Assembly: GCA_027489035.1 (NCBI GenBank) | Contig: JAIYAN010000012.1 | Coordinates: 186,001 to 250,000, forward strand | DNA from: Chitinophagaceae bacterium | GTDB taxonomy: Bacteria; Bacteroidota; Bacteroidia; Chitinophagales; Chitinophagaceae | Reading direction: 5' to 3' | DNA: 64,000 nt | Part shown: positions 4,825 through 52,769 of the stretch, piece by piece | Layout of the letters: each line of letters begins with the position of its first letter | Position numbering within the stretch: position 1 is the first letter of the stretch | Made by a program: the position numbers and the translations under genes | Notes under the pieces: generated by a model | Seen by the model: only the letters and a program-made list of their open reading frames with translations | Database searches by the model: none | Told to the model about the DNA's origin: nothing

Positions 4825-5964
4825 CTACTTCAAAATCTCCCTACTAATCACCAACTTCTGTATTTCACTAGTGCCTTCGCCTATAGTGCATAGTTTACTA
4901 TCGCGATAAAACTTTTCTACTGGAAAATCTTTTGTGTAACCATAGCCACCATAAATTTGTACCGCATCAGTGCTGATTTCCACCGCAATTTCACTTGCAT
5001 AATATTTAGCCATTGCCGATTCTTTGGTCATTGGCAAACCTTTTATTTTTAAATCACAAGCTTGTTGGATAAGTAATTCTGCACATTCAATTTTAGTTGC
5101 CATATCAGCCAACTTAAAAGAAATGGCCTGAAAGTTTGAAATCGGCTGATCGAATTGATGACGCTCTTTAGAATATTGAAGTGCCGCTTCATAAGCACCT
5201 CTTGCGATACCCAAACTCAAAGCTGCAATTGAAATGCGTCCACCATCTAATATTTTCATCGCTTGTTTAAAACCATCTCCCACTTCACCTAAACGTTGAT
5301 CATCTGAAATCACACATTGATCAAAAATCATTTCGCAAGTTTCGCTCGCACGCATGCCCAATTTATTTTCTTTCTTTCCTGCAGAAAATCCTGGCGTACC
5401 ACGGTCAACAATAAACGCAGTTGAATTATTTTTTGCACGAGGTTCGCCTGTTCTACAAATCACCACAGCCACATCACCTGATTTTCCATGTGTGATCCAG
5501 CTTTTAGTACCATTGATGATCCAATTGTTGCCATCTTTTACGGCAGTGGTTTTCATATTGCCCGCGTCACTGCCTGTATTTGGCTCTGTTAATCCCCATG
5601 CGCCAATATGCTCGGCTGTTGCCAATTTGGGAAGGTATTTTTGTTTTTGTGCCTCGTTGCCAAATGTCATAATATGACCAGTACATAAAGAATTGTGCGC
5701 CGCAAGCGATAAACCAATAGATCCACAAACTTTTGAAATTTCTTGAATGATTACATTGTATTCGTAATAACTTAATCCCGTTCCACCATAAGCCTCTGGT
5801 ACCAATACACCCATCATCCCCAATTCGCCTAATGCTTTAAAAATATGTACAGGAAATTCTTGAGATTCATCCCATTCCATCAAATTTTGACGGATATGTT
5901 GGTTAGCAAAATCTTTTGCTGTTTGAGCTACTTGAGCAGTGATTTCTGATTGTTGAAAATGCAT
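4825..5964 (-). CDS. Acyl-CoA dehydrogenase (short/medium-chain, butyryl type)
   Basis: Flavoprotein oxidising acyl-CoA to trans-2-enoyl-CoA. I choose the ATG at 5964 (starting MHFQQSEIT), giving 379 residues, the normal family length; the frame is open 15 codons further upstream but that stretch is not family-like. Seen: the FAD-binding GAWGLTEPNTGSDA segment (family motif around residues 120-133), the EYGGYGY-type segment as VQIYGGYGY, and the C-terminal IGEGTSEIQ carrying the catalytic Glu. Most similar in type to short-chain or butyryl-CoA dehydrogenases; the chain-length preference cannot be told. Confidence 0.93.
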   Translation of the reverse strand: MHFQQSEITAQVAQTAKDFANQHIRQNLMEWDESQEFPVHIFKALGELGMMGVLVPEAYGGTGLSYYEYNVIIQEISKVCGSIGLSLAAHNSLCTGHIMTFGNEAQKQKYLPKLATAEHIGAWGLTEPNTGSDAGNMKTTAVKDGNNWIINGTKSWITHGKSGDVAVVICRTGEPRAKNNSTAFIVDRGTPGFSAGKKENKLGMRASETCEMIFDQCVISDDQRLGEVGDGFKQAMKILDGGRISIAALSLGIARGAYEAALQYSKERHQFDQPISNFQAISFKLADMATKIECAELLIQQACDLKIKGLPMTKESAMAKYYASEIAVEISTDAVQIYGGYGYTKDFPVEKFYRDSKLCTIGEGTSEIQKLVISREILK

Positions 5965-6023
5965 TTTTTGGGTTTTTATTTCATGCAATTTAGGGATTAT
6001 AAAATACAAACAATCGTTAGTAT

Positions 6024-6953
6024 TTATTGTTTTATTGTTAAGTACACCACAAACCGATTGTACGATTTTTCATCGATTTGCACTATTTTTTGAATGTCTT
6101 CTAACCGATTAAAGTTTCCATGTTGATTTCGATAATTGATGATTGCATTGGCTGATTTATATCCAATGTAAGGATGCGTTTTTAAAGCCTCAAAAGTGAC
6201 TAAATTAATGTTGATTTTTTTTATTTCACCGCCTAAAACCAATCTATTTTTACTTTTTTGCAACACAGAATCTTGCAAACCCCAAACTTCCAATAGCTGA
6301 GACATATCCAAAAAACCACCCAATTTCTCTCGATATAAAATAATTCTTTTGGCCAATGTTGGTCCAATTCCGGGCAATGATTCCCATGTGGTGGAATCGG
6401 CTTTATTAATGTCTATGAAACTCAGCGCTTGCTGATTTTTCTTAGAAAATTCCTTTTCATATTTTGATTTGACTTCCGGAATTTGCACAAACGGAATTAA
6501 TTTATTCGCTAACGATTCTGGTATGCCCCAAATCTTTTTTATGTCTTCTGGCTTTCTAAATTGCCCACCTTTTGAAATGTACTTTTGTATTGATTTTGCA
6601 GTTTTTTCTGATACACCCAATTTCATCCATTCCCGCTCGGTTATTACATTCGGATTAAAATTAAACAACTCCGTTTTTGTTTCGCTTTGTCCTTGCTGTG
6701 TTTCTACTTGATGTTGATTTTCCTCCGACCATTGTACATGCTCCCCAAATTTCTTTATGCTGTCTTTTTGAATTTCTTCAAGCGTTTTTAATTCAGATAT
6801 TAAATCAACAGTAGTTTCTTCTTTTTCAGTAAACAATCTTTCATAAATAAATGGCGTAAATATCAATAGCAAATTGATAAACACGATTACAATAATGCCA
6901 TTCTTTTCTTTTTTGCTAAAATTTAATAATTGGTGTTGTTCTTTTTTTTGCAT
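6024..6953 (-). CDS. Helix-hairpin-helix (ComEA-like) protein with N-terminal anchor
   Basis: A 309-residue protein with one membrane span near residues 18-36 followed by a charged linker. Three helix-hairpin-helix units follow: around 108-155 (GVSEKTAKSIQKYISKG), 178-225 (INKADSTTWESLPGIGPTLA) and 246-300 (INLVTFEALKTHPYIGYKSA). HhH motifs bind DNA without sequence specificity. Such multi-HhH anchored proteins are common in Bacteroidota and usually annotated ComEA-like; a role in DNA uptake is inference only. Confidence 0.85.
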   Translation of the reverse strand: MQKKEQHQLLNFSKKEKNGIIVIVFINLLLIFTPFIYERLFTEKEETTVDLISELKTLEEIQKDSIKKFGEHVQWSEENQHQVETQQGQSETKTELFNFNPNVITEREWMKLGVSEKTAKSIQKYISKGGQFRKPEDIKKIWGIPESLANKLIPFVQIPEVKSKYEKEFSKKNQQALSFIDINKADSTTWESLPGIGPTLAKRIILYREKLGGFLDMSQLLEVWGLQDSVLQKSKNRLVLGGEIKKININLVTFEALKTHPYIGYKSANAIINYRNQHGNFNRLEDIQKIVQIDEKSYNRFVVYLTIKQ

Positions 6954-43336: not shown

Positions 43337-43579
43337 ATGAAATCTCCCTTCAGCAAATATCTCTACATCGGCTTTCTACTTTTAGGTTTGTATCAAGCAT
43401 TTTTTTCTAAAGACTATATCCAAGCAGCAGCTTCTCTTGGAATAGGAATGGCATTTGACCCATTCAATCCAGAACAAAAATGGAATGACCGTCCTATTTG
43501 GCAAAAAGCAGTTTTAATCATTCATCTTGCTTTGGTTGCAGCCATGTTTGGATTTGGAATTGGTATAAATGATAAATAA
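43337..43579 (+). CDS. Small membrane protein downstream of the XRE regulator
   Basis: An 80-residue protein with two or three predicted spans (about 7-24, 28-40 and 58-76) and a central NPEQKWNDRPIWQKA loop. It lies 33 bp after the XRE gene. No family recognised; XRE plus small membrane protein pairs are common in Bacteroidota. Confidence 0.75.
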   Translation: MKSPFSKYLYIGFLLLGLYQAFFSKDYIQAAASLGIGMAFDPFNPEQKWNDRPIWQKAVLIIHLALVAAMFGFGIGINDK

Positions 43580-43985
43580 ATTTCCAAGTAGTATAGTTTT
43601 TATTTGCCTGATATCAAACCATTAATTGCTTATACTTTTATCATTTATAGGAAAGAAAAAATAAATTGGTTATTCTTGTATAACGTAAACATTTTATTAT
43701 TTTTTTTCACAGATAGTTAATCATGATTCCAAATTTTGTGACCAATGTTAAGCCTATTTTCAGCTTTTTTTGTTTTAAAAATAGATACTTTATCTTCTAA
43801 TTCTCTGACATATTATTAAATCCATAGTTTTATTGGCTGAAAGTTTCATTGGGGTATTACAAATTTCCAAAATAAACAGTTGCATATTTGCTAATAAAAT
43901 CAAATTATTTATATAAGTTTACCCCCCAATAATGCACTGATAAAAGTGTTTTTCAAAGGGAGGTGCCATTAATATTTATTTTTAT
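43580..43985. other. 406-bp gene-free AT-rich spacer before the CotH operon
   Basis: No frame or RNA gene is supported. An imperfect inverted pair ATTGGGGTA (43849-43857) and TACCCCCCAAT (43920-43930) is the only structure seen, and no clear TAnnTTTG promoter was found. AGGGAGG at 43959-43965 is a possible purine-rich site, about 20 bases before the ATG. Confidence 0.5.
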
Positions 43986-46900
43986 ATGATTTTTTTTAGT
44001 TTCTTATCTAGATCAGCATATCAATTTTTTATAATTTTTTTACTTGTTTTTGGTCTGGTTTCAAATCGCGTAGAAGCCCAACTCGTAATAAATGAAGGCT
44101 CCAATAAAAATTATTCCGTCAAAGCTGATGAAGACAATGAATATAAGGATTGGATTGAGATCTACAACAATAGTGACGACAGTGTCAATCTATTGAATTA
44201 TTCACTGACTGATGATATTTCCCTTCCTTCGAAATGGACTTTCCCCAACATTAAACTAGCGCCTCATAAGTATAGAATTATCTATTGCAGCGGAAAAGAC
44301 CGAAAACCAATAAGTTCATTCAAGGAAGTAATAAACACAAGCTCTTTTAATCCCACCCCAGGCTGGAATACCCATATCTTCTCCCGACCTTTTTATTGGG
44401 ATGGCGTATCCAATCTGATGATCAATACCTGCACTTATCGTGCCAGCGGCTACACTTCAAATTCAATATTCAATCAAACCACCACAACTTATCAGTCTAC
44501 TGTTTTCGCTGCGGTGGATGACAATGAAAGCGCCTGCTCAAATTTGAATGGCACCACTTCAAACAAAAGACCCAACATGAAAATTAATGGGCAGGTGGTT
44601 GGAACAGGTACTTATAACAATTCGGGCACGGATTTCCCTGCTCCATATGGAAACTGGTATTGGTCGGCTAAAAACCAGATGATAATTCCCGCAGCCGAGT
44701 TGATTGCTGCAGGATTGACCGCAGGAAACATCACATCGCTGGGTTTCGATGTGGTCAGTACCGACCCCAATACCGTATACACCTACCTGATTATCAACAT
44801 GAAACTCGTAGTTGAAAATGAAGTGTCCAGCAGTTTTCAACAGCTTGAAAATGACCTTAATTTACATACCAATTTTACATTAAAAGGAAAAGGAGAAACC
44901 ATTTACCTTTTCAATCCAACCGGCCAACAAATAAGTAGTATGTACGTGGATTGCATAAAGATCAACAGCAGTAAAGGTTCCCCAACAGATGCTGCAGCAA
45001 GCTCAGTGTTCTTTCCATCTCCAACACCTGGCACAAGTAACAATAGAAGTACAGGATACACGAGTATATTACAACAGCCCTTGTTTTCAAAACCGGCTGG
45101 TATATTTTCAGGTGCTCAAAGTATTACTATTACTAATCCCAATACCATTACTTCTACTATACATTATACGCTAGATGGAAGCGATCCTTTATTATCTTCA
45201 CCGACCTACAACGGTGTCCCTATTAGCTTTTCTACTTCTACAGTGTTGAAAGCTGCCTGTTTTTCTGCGGAACAAATATCAAGTTTAGTCAGTACAGCTA
45301 GCTATCTAATCGGCATTTCGCATACCACACCAGTTCTTTCTGTTGTAACTGCCAACAACAACTTATATGGCAGCACCGGTATTTTCGACAACTGGCAAAA
45401 CGATTGGGAAAGGATTGCACATGCAGAATATTTCAACACCGACAAATCAATGATTTTCTCACAGCCAACCTCTATACAAATTGATGGTGGTGCAGGAGGC
45501 AGCCGTTCGCAACCCCAGCACTCCTTCCGTCTAGAACTAGACAACTCCGTTTTGGGTGGTGGTACTGTTTATTATCCTTTACTACCGGATAAGCCTAGCC
45601 GAAACAAATACAGTCGCATCTACCTAAGAAACGGAAGCAATCAGTTTCTCAGAATTCCCTACAAGGATGCCTGTGGGGTGAAAGTGCTGAGTGATGAAAC
45701 CAACAATTACTATTCTGCTTACAGGCCCGTTTCCGTTTACATCAACGGATCCTATTTTGGTTTGTATGAACTAAGAGAAAAATTCGATACAGAATATTTC
45801 AATGAAACAGACGGTGCGGATTCCTGCGATTTGCTTTCGCAAAGCTATTGGTATGGAGGTGTGTTACGTGCCATAAATGGAACCGTTGATTCATTTTATG
45901 CTGCCAGAGCTGCTTTTGAGCGAATCAATCCTACTGATAACAATTTCTGGAACAAAGCCGACCGGTATTTCGATATGAAATATTATACAGATTATATCAT
46001 TGCCGAATCGTTTATCCATAATACAGACTGGCCATACAACAACATCAAAATTTATCGTTCTGCAAAAACCAATTGGCGTTACCGTTTTTGTGTTATAGAT
46101 GTAGAATTGTCTTTGGCTCCATTTGGTTGGTCTAGTTCAAATGATGACCCTATCAGCTTTCTTTTTCAACAAGACCCAAACATTCCTTATATCAATGTAT
46201 GGCTGCGAAGTATACAAAATAGTTCCTATAAGCGTTATTTCATCAACCGTTATGCTGATATACTCAACACTTCTTATATGCCAGGAGTGCTTGCTGAAAA
46301 AGAAGACAAGATATACAAAGAGATGGAGCGCGAAATGCCCAAAGAGTACCAACGATGGGGAAACCCTAACAGCATACCCCTACAAATGAGCGCTTTCAAC
46401 ATCAGTCATCTTACACTAAAATCAGAATATACTTCCAGAGGTCAAAAAGTTAGAAATTTCATCAAGTCTGGATTTAATCTACAACGTCAAGTGGAAGTTA
46501 CACTTGATGCTTATCCGGCAGGTGCAGGAAAAGTCCGAATCTCCACCATCACACCGAATCAATTGCCATGGAAAGGAATTTATTTCAATGGTAATCCTGT
46601 TGAAATAGAAGCTGTAGCCAATCCAGGATACACCTTTTTATATTGGGAAAAGAATGACCTAATTACTCAACTAGATACTAGTAAAACCCTCGAATTTGAT
46701 ATTCCAAAAGATATTACATTCAAAGCGATTTTTGCAGAAACACCTTTTGGTTTTCCAAAAAAATTGGGAGCAGATATCCGTGCTTGGATTTATCCAAACC
46801 CCGGTAATGGGTTGGTTTCTGTATTTCTAAATGATGTAGAAGACGGCAATTACGACATGCAAATAACCAATGCGATTGGTCAATTTATCGGGTCCTACCA

Positions 46901-47030
46901 AATCAAGGTTACAGGCAGAAAAGGCATTGTAAATCCCGATTTAACAAAAGCTCCTTCAGGATTGTATTTGATTAGAATAACTCGTAACCAACAATCCTGG
47001 ATACTGAAATACTTGAAAACGGATAACTAA
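43986..47030 (+). CDS. Large CotH-family protein with lamin-tail domain and T9SS signal
   Basis: A 1014-residue exported protein. After a signal peptide (to about 31) a lamin-tail domain starts (QLVINEGSNKNYSVKADEDN). At about 118-285 it is interrupted by a module (PFYWDGVSNLMINTCTYR), then resumes (HTNFTLKGKGETIYLFNP). A CHB_HEX_C-like segment (IHYTLDGSDPLL) and the CotH domain (about 470-800; YFGLYELREKFD, VIDVELSLAPFGW) follow. The C-terminus (IYPNPGNGLVSVFL) is a type A T9SS sorting domain. Secreted or surface bound. First gene of a six-gene operon. Confidence 0.88.
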   Translation: MIFFSFLSRSAYQFFIIFLLVFGLVSNRVEAQLVINEGSNKNYSVKADEDNEYKDWIEIYNNSDDSVNLLNYSLTDDISLPSKWTFPNIKLAPHKYRIIYCSGKDRKPISSFKEVINTSSFNPTPGWNTHIFSRPFYWDGVSNLMINTCTYRASGYTSNSIFNQTTTTYQSTVFAAVDDNESACSNLNGTTSNKRPNMKINGQVVGTGTYNNSGTDFPAPYGNWYWSAKNQMIIPAAELIAAGLTAGNITSLGFDVVSTDPNTVYTYLIINMKLVVENEVSSSFQQLENDLNLHTNFTLKGKGETIYLFNPTGQQISSMYVDCIKINSSKGSPTDAAASSVFFPSPTPGTSNNRSTGYTSILQQPLFSKPAGIFSGAQSITITNPNTITSTIHYTLDGSDPLLSSPTYNGVPISFSTSTVLKAACFSAEQISSLVSTASYLIGISHTTPVLSVVTANNNLYGSTGIFDNWQNDWERIAHAEYFNTDKSMIFSQPTSIQIDGGAGGSRSQPQHSFRLELDNSVLGGGTVYYPLLPDKPSRNKYSRIYLRNGSNQFLRIPYKDACGVKVLSDETNNYYSAYRPVSVYINGSYFGLYELREKFDTEYFNETDGADSCDLLSQSYWYGGVLRAINGTVDSFYAARAAFERINPTDNNFWNKADRYFDMKYYTDYIIAESFIHNTDWPYNNIKIYRSAKTNWRYRFCVIDVELSLAPFGWSSSNDDPISFLFQQDPNIPYINVWLRSIQNSSYKRYFINRYADILNTSYMPGVLAEKEDKIYKEMEREMPKEYQRWGNPNSIPLQMSAFNISHLTLKSEYTSRGQKVRNFIKSGFNLQRQVEVTLDAYPAGAGKVRISTITPNQLPWKGIYFNGNPVEIEAVANPGYTFLYWEKNDLITQLDTSKTLEFDIPKDITFKAIFAETPFGFPKKLGADIRAWIYPNPGNGLVSVFLNDVEDGNYDMQITNAIGQFIGSYQIKVTGRKGIVNPDLTKAPSGLYLIRITRNQQSWILKYLKTDN

Positions 47031-47038
47031 CAGCAACC

Positions 47039-48433
47039 ATGGAAATGAAAAAACATCTAGTCAACATATGCTTCGTTTGTTTATTAACGTTAGTGCTGTT
47101 TTCATGCAGAAAGGATCCAGCAAATTCTGATGCAAATCCGTTCGTTTATAATCCCGACTGGACAGAAGCTTCCCATGGAAAAGCAGCGCCAAATTATCAA
47201 ACGGTTTTTCCCCAGAATAAAGTAAATCGATTAGATATTGAAATAGGTTCTGCAGAATGGAACAATATTAACCTCAATATGGAAACGATTTGTGGCATCC
47301 CTTTCGGTGCCATGGTCAATGGAGAAGGTCCCTCCACTTTTCCTGATGCCGAATATGTTTCCTCCACAGTAACTTTCAATGGTAAAAAATGGAAAAATGT
47401 CGGGTTTCGTTTAAAAGGAAATAAAGGTTTGTTTTATGCTTGGAATAATGGCATTTCTAAACTTCCTTTTCGATTAAATTTCGATAAGTTCGAAGATGAG
47501 TTCCCCGGTATCATCAACCAACATTTTTATGGATTCGAAGAGCTCAGTTTTTCTCCAGGACTGAACGACCCTTCATTGATTAGAGAGAAATTGGCAGGAG
47601 ATATTTTTAGAAATGCCGGAGTGCCTGCAGCACAAACTTCCTTTTGTCGTGTATTTGTTGATATTGGCAACGGGCCCAAATACTGGGGTCTGTACTGCAT
47701 GCTCGAACTTCCAGAAGACAATATGATTCAAGTACAATTGGGAGAATCAAATGGGAACATGTATAAACCAACTTCAAGGTTGAATTTTTTTGATATTAAT
47801 GATTTTGAAAAGAAAAATAATAATCTGGTAAACGATTATTCAGACATTAGTCAATTTATTCAATTGCTCAACAGTCCACTTCGCATCTCCAACAACACGC
47901 AATGGAAGGCTGATTTGGAAAAATTATTAAACATTGATGCATTTCTTCAGTGGCTGGCCGTTAATAATGCCATCGTAAATAAAAACAGTTACGGAAACAA
48001 TGATGAAAATTATTATCTCTATAATCATTCAATCACTGGTTTCAATTGGATTCCTTGGGACAATGATGAAACATTAAATGGCAATCCTGGTATTGTTGGC
48101 GTTCCGGGAGGTGGTCAGGATGGCCTATCGTTGAGCATGAATGAAGTAACAGCGAATTGGCCGTTGATCAGGTACCTCATGGATAATAGCAGTTATAATC
48201 AGACCTACAAAAACAAACTCCGGATTTTTTTGAACTTGCAAATGGAGACGGGAGATTTAGACCGAAAAATAGATGCATATTATAGTCTTATCACGCCTTA
48301 TGTAGTAGGAATTGATGGTGAACAGCCGGGTTATACGTATTTGAACAACACTGGGGAATTTGTGATAGAGAAGAACAATTTACATGAGCACATTCAAAAC
48401 AGAATCAATGTAATCAATCAATTTTTACCTTGA
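47039..48433 (+). CDS. CotH-family lipoprotein 1
   Basis: A 464-residue lipoprotein (lipobox LVLFSC). The CotH domain shows NVGFRLKGNKGLF, FDKFEDEFPG, LNDPSLIREKLAGDIFRNAG, YWGLYCMLELPEDNM and the metal-type IPWDNDETLNG. CotH proteins are atypical secreted kinases that phosphorylate spore-coat proteins in Bacillus. The ATG 47039 is 8 bp after the upstream stop. The gene is a close paralogue of the next one. Confidence 0.87.
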   Translation: MEMKKHLVNICFVCLLTLVLFSCRKDPANSDANPFVYNPDWTEASHGKAAPNYQTVFPQNKVNRLDIEIGSAEWNNINLNMETICGIPFGAMVNGEGPSTFPDAEYVSSTVTFNGKKWKNVGFRLKGNKGLFYAWNNGISKLPFRLNFDKFEDEFPGIINQHFYGFEELSFSPGLNDPSLIREKLAGDIFRNAGVPAAQTSFCRVFVDIGNGPKYWGLYCMLELPEDNMIQVQLGESNGNMYKPTSRLNFFDINDFEKKNNNLVNDYSDISQFIQLLNSPLRISNNTQWKADLEKLLNIDAFLQWLAVNNAIVNKNSYGNNDENYYLYNHSITGFNWIPWDNDETLNGNPGIVGVPGGGQDGLSLSMNEVTANWPLIRYLMDNSSYNQTYKNKLRIFLNLQMETGDLDRKIDAYYSLITPYVVGIDGEQPGYTYLNNTGEFVIEKNNLHEHIQNRINVINQFLP

Positions 48434-48496
48434 TTCTAAATGTGCATCGAAGGATTTTCTTCTGCATTACATCTAACTTCTAAAATTATAATACAC

Positions 48497-49921
48497 ATGA
48501 CTAAAAAATGGCCATTTCTAATTTCAACATCAATACTATTAATTACAATAGCCTTCAGTTCTTCGTGCAGAAAAAATCCTGTGTTGCCTGCAGAAGTCAT
48601 TACACCACAGGAATACAACCCAGATTGGACAGTAGCCACGCATGGCAATGTGGCTCCAGATTATACCACAGTGTTTCCACAAAACACGGTCAATAGGCTC
48701 GAAATTAATCTGGGTGCCGACAAATGGGCTGCCATTCGGAGCAATATGGTCGCTTTGTTCGGTTACGATTTTGGTTCTGGAACACAACCTGGTCCTCCCG
48801 GAAGTTTTCCCTCTCAAGAAACCAATTATGTGGATGGTACAATTACTTTCAATGGAAAAATATGGAAAAATGTAGGGCTAAGGTTAAAAGGGAATTCAAC
48901 CTTGTCGACGGCTTGGCGTTCGGGAATTTATAAACTTCCATTTCGGTTAAATTTTGATAAGTTCGAAGATCAATATCCCGGTATCAAGAATCAGCATTTT
49001 TATGGTTTTGAAGAAATGTCATTCTCTCCAGGTATTAAAGATCCTTCCCTTATTCGTGAAAAAATAACTGCCGATATTTTTAGAATGGGTGGAATTCCTG
49101 CACCAAAAACAGCTTTTTATGCAGTTTATGTTGACATTGGAACTGGCTTGAAATACTGGGGTGTTTATTGTGGCATCGAACTTCCCGATGACAACATGGT
49201 GAAAAATCAGCTGGGTTCTGAAAGTGGTAATATGTATAAGCCGGAATCAAAATTCAGCAGTTTTATACAAACAGAATTTGAAAAGAAAAACAACGAGACA
49301 GCTGCGGATTATACTGATGTGCAGAATTTTGTTCAACAACTCAACAGTAGCAACAGAACTACCAATCCTGCTCAATGGCGTGAAGATTTGGAAAGTACTT
49401 TTAATGTTGATCACTTTTTAAAATGGTTGGCTATCAATAACACTATTGTCAACTGGGATACTTATGGATTAATGGCCCACAACTATTATTTATACAATGA
49501 TTCGGTAAAAAAGTTAACCTGGATACCATGGGATAACAATGAGGCTTTGACTAGAAGTCCTGGTATAACAGGTACAACTAGTGGCGGAACTATGCCTGGA
49601 GGCAGCACCGCTTTATCATTAAGTATGAATGAGATCAACAGTGGATGGCCGCTGATTCGTTATATGGCCGACGATGCAGTTTATTTTCAACAATATAAAA
49701 ATCATTTGAGAGATTTTAAAAATAATGCTTTCAATGTAACTCAGCTGCAATCTATGATAGATACGTATTATGATTTGATCACTCCATTCGCTATCGGAGC
49801 CAACGGAGAGCAAACAGGATACACGCATTTGAGCAGTGCTGCCGCATTTACTAATGAAAGATCTACATTAAAAACTCATGTGCAAAGCAGATGGACACTT
49901 GTAAATAGTTTTGTACCTTAA
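48497..49921 (+). CDS. CotH-family lipoprotein 2
   Basis: A 474-residue lipoprotein starting at MTKKWPFLIS with a lipobox FSSSC. It is collinear with the preceding protein: NVGLRLKGNSTLS, FDKFEDQYPG, IKDPSLIREKITADIFRMGG, YWGVYCGIELPDDNM. The second Asp of the metal-type motif is replaced (IPWDNNEAL). The start choice follows the lipoprotein signal; an upstream ATG at 48440 lacks one. Confidence 0.86.
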   Translation: MTKKWPFLISTSILLITIAFSSSCRKNPVLPAEVITPQEYNPDWTVATHGNVAPDYTTVFPQNTVNRLEINLGADKWAAIRSNMVALFGYDFGSGTQPGPPGSFPSQETNYVDGTITFNGKIWKNVGLRLKGNSTLSTAWRSGIYKLPFRLNFDKFEDQYPGIKNQHFYGFEEMSFSPGIKDPSLIREKITADIFRMGGIPAPKTAFYAVYVDIGTGLKYWGVYCGIELPDDNMVKNQLGSESGNMYKPESKFSSFIQTEFEKKNNETAADYTDVQNFVQQLNSSNRTTNPAQWREDLESTFNVDHFLKWLAINNTIVNWDTYGLMAHNYYLYNDSVKKLTWIPWDNNEALTRSPGITGTTSGGTMPGGSTALSLSMNEINSGWPLIRYMADDAVYFQQYKNHLRDFKNNAFNVTQLQSMIDTYYDLITPFAIGANGEQTGYTHLSSAAAFTNERSTLKTHVQSRWTLVNSFVP

Positions 49922-49930
49922 TAAAAAAAT

Positions 49931-50680
49931 TTGGAACTGCTTGACCAATTTAATTCTGTTTCTATTGACGCGCTCAATCAGAAAAACCTGTTGTCGAATC
50001 GGCAAGATAGAAAATTTGTTATATCGTCCGAAGCTTTGTCAGAGATCCTGAACGCTTGTTTGGCTGAATATGATGTGCTTGAAATAGCGGGCATAAGAAA
50101 TTTCAAATACACAACTAACTACTTTGATACCCTTGGTCTTCACATGTACCATGAGCATCAGCGAGGTAAACAAAATAGGTGCAAAATAAGAACTAGGTTT
50201 TATGTTGACAGCCAGATTGGTTTTGTTGAGGTAAAAGTAAAAAATAATAAAGACCGAACCATCAAACACCGAGTGAAGGGGATGGAACTGGCAGGCGGAA
50301 AATCGGTCATTGAAAGCAATACCCGATATTCGATCGACGAACTAGAGCAGGTATTTGAATTGCAATACAAAAGAATCACACTATTGCATAAAAACAAATT
50401 GGAAAAAGTGACATTAGACACTGAATTGACGTATGCGAAAGGTTCACATCGATTCGATATTGAGCAACTTATTTTCGCAGAAGTGAAAACGAATGATGCG
50501 CATGATATTACTTTTTGCCAGATTATGAAATCAATGGGTATTAGAAATGGCTCACTTAGTAAATACTGTTTGGGCGTCATAAGTTTTTATCCAAACATCA
50601 AACAAAACAGCTTTAAACTATCTTTAAAAAAAATATTTAAAATACACGCAGATGCAACTAATGAACATACTGGGATTTAA
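49931..50680 (+). CDS. VTC-domain (polyphosphate polymerase-like) protein
   Basis: A 249-residue protein with the VTC tunnel-fold signature: RQDRKFVIS at 24-32, KIRTRFYV, VEVKVKNNKDRTIKHR, LDTELTYAKG and FAEVKTN near the C-terminus, providing the basic and acidic residues of the nucleotide/polyphosphate tunnel. Eukaryotic Vtc4 makes polyphosphate from ATP. The start is TTG 49931, 9 bp after the CotH gene. The 3' end overlaps the DUF4956 gene by 29 bp. Confidence 0.88.
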   Translation: MELLDQFNSVSIDALNQKNLLSNRQDRKFVISSEALSEILNACLAEYDVLEIAGIRNFKYTTNYFDTLGLHMYHEHQRGKQNRCKIRTRFYVDSQIGFVEVKVKNNKDRTIKHRVKGMELAGGKSVIESNTRYSIDELEQVFELQYKRITLLHKNKLEKVTLDTELTYAKGSHRFDIEQLIFAEVKTNDAHDITFCQIMKSMGIRNGSLSKYCLGVISFYPNIKQNSFKLSLKKIFKIHADATNEHTGI

Positions 50681-51245
50681 TGTGATTAACAGCGAATTAT
50701 TAAGCCGTTATGTGCTGAATCTACTGTTAGCCGTTTTCCTTATCAGAGGAATTTATTACACCAATTACAAAAGAAGCGATCTTTTTCTGACTTTCTTTTC
50801 ATTTAACAACATTATATTCTTCGTTTCTTTCATGTTGAACAAGGTGGAATTAAGCACTGGAGCGGCTTTTGGACTGTTTGCCGTATTTTCAATTTTGAGA
50901 TATCGAACCGAGGGCATTTCTGCTAAAGACATGACCTATCTGTTTTTGAACATTGCTATTGGATTGCTCACTGCTGTTAGCACTGGCAATATTTTGGATA
51001 TTTCTATTATTGGTATAATGATCTTGTTCATCACCTTCATTTTAGAAAGCAACTTCTTCTTAAAAAAAGAAAGTGCTAAAGTGATACATTACGACGATAT
51101 CAAACTTATACATGAAAACCAGAAAGATTTATTGCTGGAAGATTTGAAAAAAAGAACAGGTTTGGAAGTGAAAAGATTCATCATAAATGAAATTGATTTT
51201 CTAAAAGACTGTTGTACCATTACCATTTATTACTTTGAAAAATGA
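50652..51245 (+). CDS. DUF4956 membrane protein
   Basis: A 197-residue protein with four predicted spans (about 15-32, 45-62, 66-83 and 95-130) and a cytoplasmic C-terminal domain of about 60 residues (IHYDDIKLIHENQKDLLLEDLKKRTG). The GAAFGLFAVFSILRYRTEGI segment is the conserved DUF4956 core. It commonly accompanies VTC-domain genes. Function unknown. Confidence 0.88.
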   Translation: MQLMNILGFNVINSELLSRYVLNLLLAVFLIRGIYYTNYKRSDLFLTFFSFNNIIFFVSFMLNKVELSTGAAFGLFAVFSILRYRTEGISAKDMTYLFLNIAIGLLTAVSTGNILDISIIGIMILFITFILESNFFLKKESAKVIHYDDIKLIHENQKDLLLEDLKKRTGLEVKRFIINEIDFLKDCCTITIYYFEK

Positions 51246-51943
51246 AAAAAATAATTATCTCCATTTGTTTATTAATAAGCAGTTTCCAACAAACATTTTC
51301 GCAGGCAACCAAAGCAGATCCGAAAGATGCGGAAGGATGGTACAGTGCTTCGCTAAAGCTTGATCTTCCAAGAAAATGGGAAAGCAATCTCACCTACGAA
51401 TCTCGGTTCTACAACAACCTCAAAACCTATTATGGTACTTATATTTCTTTGTCTGGAACTAAAGAAGTAAGTAAAGTTGTTAAAATGAGCGGGGAGTACA
51501 GAATTGCATTTCTTAATAAAGGCATAACGCACCGATATACATTGGGAATGGAAGGCGCTTGGAAAATAAAAAAGAAATTGGAATTAAGTGGTCGTTTTCA
51601 ATTGCAAAATCGGATACAAGATTCTTATGACCCATTGGAAGCAAATGATAAAACCTTGTTTTGGAGATTCAAGGCACAAGCAAAATATCCGCTAAATAAG
51701 AAATTTGATGTTTATGCATCAGTTGAACCTATCATGGAATTTGGAGGCAATAATTTTGTTGATAATTGGAGAAATATTATCGGTATAAAATATAAAATCT
51801 ACAAGAGAACCAAACTGGATTTGTCTTATTTATATAGACCGGATTATGGTAAAAAGACCTATAATAGGTATTACAATATTTTGAATCTAAATATAACGTA
51901 TAATTTAAAAATCAAAGATAAAAATAAGAAGAATAAGAAATAA
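51242..51943 (+). CDS. DUF2490 outer-membrane-type protein
   Basis: A 233-residue protein with a signal peptide (MKKIIISICLLISSFQQTFSQ) and alternating beta strands rich in aromatics (LTYESRFYNN, LSGRFQLQNR, LDLSYLYRP), as in DUF2490 predicted barrels. It overlaps the DUF4956 gene by 4 bp (ATGA). The Lys/Asn-rich tail is unusual for a barrel end. Confidence 0.85.
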   Translation: MKKIIISICLLISSFQQTFSQATKADPKDAEGWYSASLKLDLPRKWESNLTYESRFYNNLKTYYGTYISLSGTKEVSKVVKMSGEYRIAFLNKGITHRYTLGMEGAWKIKKKLELSGRFQLQNRIQDSYDPLEANDKTLFWRFKAQAKYPLNKKFDVYASVEPIMEFGGNNFVDNWRNIIGIKYKIYKRTKLDLSYLYRPDYGKKTYNRYYNILNLNITYNLKIKDKNKKNKK

Positions 51944-52052
51944 CTTATCTCAACATCGAAATACTTGTGTATTAAATTGTCATTTTTTTGATTGATTATT
52001 CTTGCATCTCTAAATTGTCTAAGCCACAATATCAATAAAACGAATCTATTAA

Positions 52053-52769
52053 TCACATTTTCCTAAGCATTGAATACGGCATTAACTTTAACAAAAAACC
52101 AATGAAGCGCCAACGTTTTGTGATGTAAACAACTTTTCGTTTTCTTTTTATTGCAGTAAAAATTTGTTGTGCTGCTTTTTCAATAGGCGCCACCCAAAAT
52201 AAACCTTCACCTTTTGCCATATCGGTATCAACAAAACCAGGACGCACATCTGTTACATGAATATCGACGTTTGATTTGTAGGCATTTAATCTCAAGCCTT
52301 CGAGGTAGTTGATTTGAAAAGCTTTTGTTGCGTTATAAGATGGCGCTTCCCCATTTCCAATCAATCCTGCAATGGAACTAATATTCACCAAATGTCCATG
52401 CCCTTGTTTTTTAAAATAATTCATTGCCCAATCAGCAACACAAGTAAAGCCTTGAACATTGGTTTTGATGACATTGTTTTCAATAGAGAAATCAAGCGAT
52501 TTATTTTCATCGCCAATGCCAGCAGAAATAATGAACAGGTCCAATCCTCCCAATTGATCAACAAGGTTATTACAAATCGATTCAACAGTAGAAACATCTT
52601 GCACATCCATTTGACAAAAACTTATCTTATTTGGATTTTTTTCTTTTAATGATTGCAACATATCCACTCTTCTTCCAGTAACCCCAACCGCATAATCATT
52701 TTGTATTAAAATGTCAGTGATGGATTTTCCAATGCCACTGGTGGCGCCAATAACGATTGCTTTTTTCAT
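52053..52769 (-). CDS. Short-chain dehydrogenase/reductase, paralogue 2
   Basis: A 238-residue SDR collinear with the protein at 35305-36021 over its full length (GATSGIGKS, NISSIAGL, YNATK), including the basic tail. Most differences are conservative. The upstream flanks also match for about 30 bases. The two are a recent duplication. Confidence 0.9.
   Translation of the reverse strand: MKKAIVIGATSGIGKSITDILIQNDYAVGVTGRRVDMLQSLKEKNPNKISFCQMDVQDVSTVESICNNLVDQLGGLDLFIISAGIGDENKSLDFSIENNVIKTNVQGFTCVADWAMNYFKKQGHGHLVNISSIAGLIGNGEAPSYNATKAFQINYLEGLRLNAYKSNVDIHVTDVRPGFVDTDMAKGEGLFWVAPIEKAAQQIFTAIKRKRKVVYITKRWRFIGFLLKLMPYSMLRKM

Follow-up and report, generated by a model that had tools for sequence, protein, structure and literature searches.

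A stretch of 64,000 nucleotides from a Chitinophagaceae bacterium (GCA_027489035.1, contig JAIYAN010000012.1, positions 186,001 to 250,000; referred to here as the window) contains a six-gene operon encoding three CotH proteins, a VTC-domain protein, a DUF4956 protein and a DUF2490 protein. Our data indicate that this is a real, conserved, envelope-spanning gene module and that its arrangement is far beyond chance. The likeliest single reading of the sequences, which we hold tentatively, is that the module may synthesize and export a phosphate polymer in diderm Bacteroidota, where the polymer would serve surface kinases or the matrix. Readings of the module as a regulator or as a phosphodonor line follow close behind.

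All six open reading frames (ORFs) lie on the + strand between positions 43986 and 51943, and each protein matches its family above the Pfam cut-off, in agreement with the initial annotation of the stretch, which described the six genes as an operon running in one direction. The CotH proteins score 65.0, 183.8 and 204.5 bits (cut-off 23.8), and the VTC (PF09359), DUF4956 and DUF2490 proteins score 89.7, 167.8 and 66.8 bits (cut-offs 23, 30.6 and 29.8, respectively). By the listed starts the genes are separated by gaps of 8, 6 and 9 bp, followed by overlaps of 29 bp (VTC/DUF4956) and 4 bp (DUF4956/DUF2490). The initial annotation gave the same two overlaps together with a gap of 63 bp, which holds only if CotH3 begins at a later ATG (48497); we prefer this start because it results in a compact lipoprotein-like signal.

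We searched one even draw of 148 genomes from the phylum of the window (Bacteroidota), family by family, and found DUF4956 in 45 genomes, VTC in 29, CotH in 60, and DUF2490 in 55 at E 0.001 (51 over cut-off). Every genome with VTC also has DUF4956 and CotH (29/29; hypergeometric p 1e-19 and 2e-14, respectively, kinship ignored), while 17 of the 29 have DUF2490 (p 0.008, kinship likewise ignored). The strong co-occurrence of CotH, VTC and DUF4956 in other genomes, for which the initial annotation had proposed a search, is thus borne out. DUF4956 lies within 10 kb of VTC on the same contig for 32 of the 33 VTC matches, and directly 3' at a distance of 125-265 bp for 30 of them. A second set of 93 loci comprises the window, 12 loci from the 148-genome draw and the best 80 of at least 561 confirmed relatives from a scan of named genomes with the DUF4956 alignment; since only these best 80 were retained, the set leans toward close relatives. 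Within 8 kb of DUF4956 in these loci we found VTC at 88, DUF2490 at 67 and CotH at 41, with VTC immediately 5' of DUF4956 in 88 and DUF2490 immediately 3' in 62. The VTC and DUF4956 genes overlap at 68 of the 88 loci (median 20 bp; ORFs were taken from their first start, which may overstate the overlap), which suggests that the two proteins might be coupled. Among the five loci lacking VTC, three lie at contig edges (L112, L147 and L156), one holds a weak VTC fragment (L153, 36 bits) and one has no VTC in 20 kb (L075). The CotH label that a local profile had given L075 was dropped, as Pfam does not support it. The nearest relative of the window, a Chitinophagaceae metagenome-assembled genome (MAG; L084) with 77% identity in DUF4956, has two CotHs followed by VTC, DUF4956 and DUF2490, an order shared with the window, and the module is also found in the named isolates Runella zeae, Emticicia, Larkinella and Flectobacillus. 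DUF4956, DUF2490 and CotH in records labelled as a Bifidobacterium breve MAG (L156) and a Sphingomonadales MAG (L139) look like misbinned Bacteroidota contigs.

The pairing of VTC with DUF4956 extends across phyla. A search of a plasmid collection with the window VTC protein gave 16 records, of which ten were viewed and nine were scanned with profiles. VTC stands beside DUF4956 in all nine scanned loci (five from Alphaproteobacteria, two from Deinococcus and two from Actinomycetota), and the tenth, short record likewise carries the pair. The order of the two genes is reversed in six Alphaproteobacteria and two Actinomycetota, and CotH is present in one of the nine loci, that of Deinococcus taeanensis. 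A gene for a phytase-family esterase lies downstream of the pair in six Alphaproteobacteria, one of which adds an inorganic phosphate transporter, and loci other than the window provide further phosphate context (HAD acid phosphatase, PhnCDE). The pair without an adjacent DUF2490 was also found in loci labelled Methanoperedens, Methanospirillum, Calditrichaeota and Anaerolineae.

Judged by sequence, the VTC protein of the window is a clear relative of Vtc4. A profile of 16 VTC sequences (A5) compared with the PDB gave Vtc4 chains as its best four matches (top 3g3q, E 4.1e-16), followed by Vtc2 in fifth place, two further Vtc4 chains and then Vtc3. Weak matches to response regulators (E 0.06) were set aside as noise. 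Residues K28, R87 and R89 align with Vtc4 K200, R264 and R266 (numbers counted along chain 8i6v_E, which we took to be full-length) and are conserved in 82 of 84, 85 of 85 and 84 of 86 covering VTCs, respectively. We take K200 to have a role in the Vtc4 tunnel. The residues that hardly vary across 88 VTCs are K28, R83, K85, R87, R89, E100, K102, K112, R148, E158, D163, E184, K186 and K211, with E184 kept in 86 of the 88; the alignments to Vtc4 stop before E426. Vtc4 R264A/R266A/E426N is impaired, and polymer synthesis and translocation are coupled in the eukaryotic VTC (PMC9911596); the same coupling is proposed here for the module of the window. The TTM (triphosphate-tunnel)/VTC domain with equivalents of K200, R264 and R266 is common to the window protein and the eukaryotic Vtc1/Vtc3/Vtc4 complex, but the window protein of 249 aa contains neither an SPX nor a Vtc-type transmembrane domain (VTC is its sole Pfam match at E 0.1), its membrane partner would be DUF4956, and an outer-membrane barrel is added. 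These data suggest that the VTC protein might polymerise phosphate from ATP. Of the 29 VTC genomes, 27 also encode PPK1, including that of the window, in which PPK2 was not found. We therefore rejected VTC as a replacement for PPK1 and regard it as an additional activity.

DUF2490 is confidently predicted to be an outer-membrane barrel. The AlphaFold2 model, built from 42 sequences, has a predicted local distance difference test (pLDDT) of 91.6 and a predicted template modelling score (pTM) of 0.83, and it contains 11 strands of 12-16 residues together with two bridges of one residue each, at 22 and 25. NanC was the best Foldseek match (E 2.9e-6), and VIA-align gave NalP (Z 16.9), KdgM (16.8) and NanC (16.4), with a root-mean-square deviation from KdgM of 2.2 over 158 residues. 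KdgM is a 12-stranded channel specific for acidic sugars (PMC4849052). DUF2490 shares a small predicted outer-membrane barrel and a basic inferred lumen with the acidic-oligosaccharide porins KdgM and NanC, which are among its nearest solved structures, but the likeness is structural, at approximately 8-13% identity, and Pfam assigns the protein to DUF2490. The conserved residues R55, R87, R98, R118, R142, K144 and R177 are predicted to face the lumen by strand parity and hydropathy, not by coordinates. We compared 20 DUF2490s from outside the module, in which the R87 and K144 positions are Arg or Lys in 0 and 4 proteins, and which carry R69, R124 and R140 instead. Glutamates found in these outside proteins are mostly lost within the module (E51 in 7/42 vs 16/20, E96 in 1/42 vs 19/20 and E122 in 2/42 vs 20/20).

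We found that each of R83, R85, T86 and Y96 is kept by 90 to 93 of the 93 DUF4956 proteins. The AlphaFold2 model of DUF4956 (13 sequences; pLDDT 80.2, pTM 0.59) has five long helices, predicted to lie in the membrane, and an alpha/beta domain at its C-terminus, and structural comparison gave mostly small resemblances to alpha/beta domains (Z up to 6.2). The Vtc1/DUF202 and MgtC folds are absent from the lists of fold matches, which by itself does not exclude either, and at E 0.1 Pfam lists no MgtC match for the protein of the window. DUF4956 may act as a channel, and relatives of it in genomes lacking VTC bear on this role. Such genomes number 16 of the 148, and 14 were inspected (G038 and G100 left out). 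In one family (L193-L202) DUF4956 is followed by a gene of approximately 330 aa and one of approximately 412 aa at all ten loci. The former is HlyD-like in each of the three loci scanned, over the curated cut-off in two; the matches of L198 fall below it, leaving the adaptor reading soft. At L078 this reading comes from a lipoyl domain that passes the Pfam cut-off and from a match to a resistance-nodulation-division adaptor that is sub-threshold (E 2e-15). The product of the second gene is TolC-sized and secreted-looking. Of its four members tested, only that of L200 matches an outer-membrane efflux family (NCBIfam E 8e-4, far below cut-off); L193 and L078 have no Pfam or NCBIfam matches, and L198, searched against Pfam alone, has a sub-threshold match to DUF4363. 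The L193-L202 loci (e.g., L193 3008-5925) could encode an unusual tripartite exporter with a divergent DUF4956 as its inner-membrane part. Elsewhere, a CotH with a type IX secretion system (T9SS) tail (24.9 bits, just over cut-off), DUF4956 and an adaptor-like gene form a single run in G012, a metallophosphatase lies two genes after DUF4956 in G049, and DUF4956 stands alone in G017 and G025, as seen on maps only. These neighbourhoods favour an export role for the DUF4956 family, but these members are divergent.

We scanned 42 near-full-length CotHs among the 50 ORFs so labelled in the module loci, leaving out seven fragments and L075. All 42 match the CotH domain, 29 match a T9SS tail at E 0.01, and seven are positive in a crude lipobox test, CotH2 and CotH3 of the window among them. 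In a catalytic-site alignment of 55 sequences, five of them gapped at each site, the D228-equivalent is Asp in 45 of the 50 covering CotHs and the D251-equivalent in all 50; the D228 position was assigned by combining what we take to be D251 with a spacing of 23 residues in the 5jd9 alignment. CotH1 keeps both Asp positions in the motifs HNTDWP and CVID, as does CotH3 (D340 and D365), which suggests that both are likely active kinases. CotH2 has Asn at the D228-equivalent (VNKNSYG), making it a probable pseudokinase. Its counterpart in L084 (7893-9284) has Gly at that position, so that a pseudokinase may be conserved beside active-looking CotHs in both. The CotH of Bacillus subtilis phosphorylates repeat proteins rich in Ser, Lys and Arg that are encoded beside it, and its D228Q form is inactive (PMC7821199).

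About a third of related operons contain one or both of two small secreted companions, neither of which is present in the window. A secreted-looking repeat protein of approximately 167 aa with 17.5% Lys occurs in 35 of the 93 loci (e.g., L104 7132-7635); its net charge, signal peptide counted, ranges from +2 to +17, and in all but one of the 35 loci its gene is the immediate 5' neighbour of VTC. A lipoprotein-like family of approximately 137 aa occurs in 34 loci (36 proteins, 29 with a lipobox-like motif; e.g., L111 3524-3937). Its genes mostly sit close to VTC on the upstream side, and its members weakly match domains of the prealbumin-like and carboxypeptidase-regulatory types. No Pfam match above cut-off was found for three lysine-rich members or two members of the second family. 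The lysine-rich protein could be a substrate of CotH or could bind polyanions. A basic repeat protein near a CotH kinase also recalls the CotB/CotG/CotH spore-coat module of Bacillus, with which the window shares the CotH family; the repeat proteins are likened by description, not homology, and VTC, DUF4956 and DUF2490 are present only in the window.

The initial annotation regarded the assembled function as not established. The Bacteroidota module and its function are indeed undescribed in the literature searched, which covered no bioRxiv preprints and only a minority of subscription papers, but its three-gene core is already in print beside the biofilm sugar Pel. Accessory genes of the type CotH-PPP(VTC)-DUF4956-DUF4832 accompany Pel loci in Gram-positives (PMC7112168), and SIR_1591-1594 of Streptococcus intermedius is a CotH/VTC/DUF4956-type cassette beside Pel (PMC12345266). 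The CotH, VTC-type and DUF4956 genes are contiguous there and in the window, whereas the window adds a DUF2490 barrel, multiple CotHs and T9SS or lipoprotein-like anchoring, and has no DUF4832 among the ten proteins scanned. When the DUF4956-type gene or CotH is deleted from S. intermedius, aggregation drops by more than half in artificial sputum medium; the former deletion gives more Pel and the latter less (PMC12345266). The authors of that 2025 paper report that they did not find the three-gene synteny outside Pel (PMC12345266). Our data bear on this statement, as CotH, VTC and DUF4956 commonly occur in synteny away from Pel loci. PelG, the only pel gene searched, is over cut-off in 2 of the 148 genomes and in none of the 29 VTC genomes (sub-threshold in G055 and G135), and was not found in the genome of the window; an association with Pel in these genomes is thus not supported. 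A related arrangement may exist in NELoc-2 of Clostridium perfringens (CP4_0460-0468), where VTC-domain genes are followed by membrane proteins of 226 and 222 aa with CotH nearby (PMC2879425). The annotation there is tubulin/FtsZ, and the genes lie near a chitin-synthase-like glycosyltransferase (PMC2879425); that the membrane proteins are DUF4956 is our guess. BT3498-99 of Bacteroides thetaiotaomicron, a DUF4956 and a DUF2490 gene, are given in an iron stimulon table (-7.6, p 0.175; PMC10434189).

We hypothesize that the cytoplasmic VTC domain would polymerise phosphate from ATP and pass the chain to the inner-membrane DUF4956, and that the chain would traverse the periplasm and exit through the basic lumen of the DUF2490 barrel. 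Outside, more speculatively, it could be a matrix partner of the CotHs or a phosphate source for kinases where ATP is scarce, with CotH3 and CotH1 as likely active kinases and CotH2 as their pseudokinase partner. The compartments of the envelope-spanning pathway in the initial annotation hold up, since the VTC protein has no signal, DUF4956 is a membrane protein, DUF2490 is a predicted barrel and the CotHs are secreted; surface phospho-transfer remains conjectural. Its description as a complete pathway is also conjectural, and is opposed by the missing catalytic Asp of CotH2, by the lack of both small secreted genes from the window and by the VTC-type deletion in S. intermedius (SIR_1593, polyphosphate-polymerase domain), for which no change in aggregation or Pel is reported (PMC12345266). 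That last result weighs against phosphate-polymer export itself, as do several of our own. CotH lies near DUF4956 at only 41 of the 93 loci, one of them being L075, and DUF2490 is nearby in none of the nine plasmid loci, including the five from diderm Alphaproteobacteria. The DUF4956 fold search gave no significant PDB match, and one of three divergent DUF4956 relatives scanned matches MgtC weakly (E 0.026; 15.3 bits vs a cut-off of 31.4). The NalP autotransporter ties with KdgM as a match for DUF2490. Finally, the 20 outside DUF2490s are at least as positive in the inferred lumen (median 8 vs 7) and conserve R55, R98, R118, R142 and R177. With five of the seven basic positions kept outside the module, a module-specific arginine ladder was rejected; a basic lumen is a trait of the DUF2490 family and hence does not prove phosphate cargo. 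That the module is the first dedicated prokaryotic machine to make polyphosphate and drive it across both membranes, for CotH kinases or lysine-rich partners at the surface, seems to us unlikely.

The MgtC match would suit a regulatory module, in which an MgtC/ACT-like DUF4956 in the inner membrane regulates ATP or phosphate status and VTC is its nucleotide- or polyphosphate-binding partner, the two tuning surface CotH activity and matrix production with no polymer exported. The predicted C-terminal alpha/beta domain of DUF4956 is consistent with this, and in S. intermedius it is deletion of the DUF4956-type gene, assigned an MgtC transmembrane domain and an ACT domain by the authors, that alters Pel and aggregation, with no such effect reported for the VTC-type gene (PMC12345266). 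A regulator would not account for the predicted outer-membrane barrel in 67 of the 93 loci, the HlyD-like adaptors beside VTC-less DUF4956 or the catalytic-type VTC residues, which are kept nearly without exception, and we consider this reading, consequences included, possible but doubtful. The presence of CotH in all 29 VTC genomes points instead to the kinases: a short phosphate compound or polyphosphate might be made solely to feed CotHs outside the cytoplasm, which would phosphorylate lysine-rich or other surface proteins; the system would then modify proteins post-translationally and would not form a polymer capsule. The positively charged lysine-rich protein encoded next to VTC and the neighbouring substrates of B. 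subtilis CotH (PMC7821199) argue for such a line, but the window lacks the lysine-rich gene and no CotH lies within 6 kb of VTC/DUF4956 at the five alphaproteobacterial loci searched; we judge it rather unlikely. That the genes are independent, sharing no more than a transcript and serving separate roles in the envelope, would fit the 31 of 60 CotH genomes that lack VTC and the DUF2490 and DUF4956 genes found alone elsewhere. VTC and DUF4956 stay next to each other in different phyla, even with the order reversed, in Alphaproteobacteria and at two Actinomycetota loci, which makes independence improbable.

If phosphate-polymer export is correct, the module would be a defined means by which bacteria put polyphosphate outside the cell, and it would explain how secreted kinases are supplied with phosphate where ATP is scarce. 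The module is widespread in bacteria and almost unstudied beyond the Pel-associated core in Gram-positives (PMC7112168), and it gives DUF4956 and DUF2490 a concrete, testable role.

Table 1. Features of the operon and its upstream region, with positions in the window (CotH1 domains in residues).
Feature	Position	Strand	Description
Upstream intergenic region	43580..43985	.	406 bp, AT-rich; probable promoter region
CotH1	43986..47030	+	1014 aa, secreted, multidomain (Pfam, NCBIfam)
CotH1 domains	LTD (lamin tail) 33-112; CHB_HEX/Fn3_assoc 370-440; CotH 505-819; InlB-like repeat 863-918; T9SS C-terminal sorting 935-1006
CotH2	47039..48433	+	464 aa, lipoprotein-like signal, CotH domain
CotH3	48440..49921	+	493 aa, or 474 from ATG 48497; lipoprotein-like
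VTC-domain protein (triphosphate-tunnel, Vtc4-like)	49931..50680	+	249 aa, TTG start in ORF list
DUF4956	50652..51245	+	five predicted long helices; alpha/beta domain at C-terminus
DUF2490	51242..51943	+	N-terminal signal-like helix and predicted outer-membrane beta-barrel, basic inferred lumen

NCBIfam likewise detects the T9SS sorting tail of CotH1. Rfam gave no matches over 43400-52200, and counts of promoter- and terminator-like sites over 43500-52200 were not above shuffled expectation. On the right flank lies a convergent gene (52053-52769, - strand) with the look of a short-chain dehydrogenase, named by eye. A similar short-chain-dehydrogenase-like gene also follows the VTC-less DUF4956 operon of L193 on the same strand as that operon (5922-6650), which may be coincidence.

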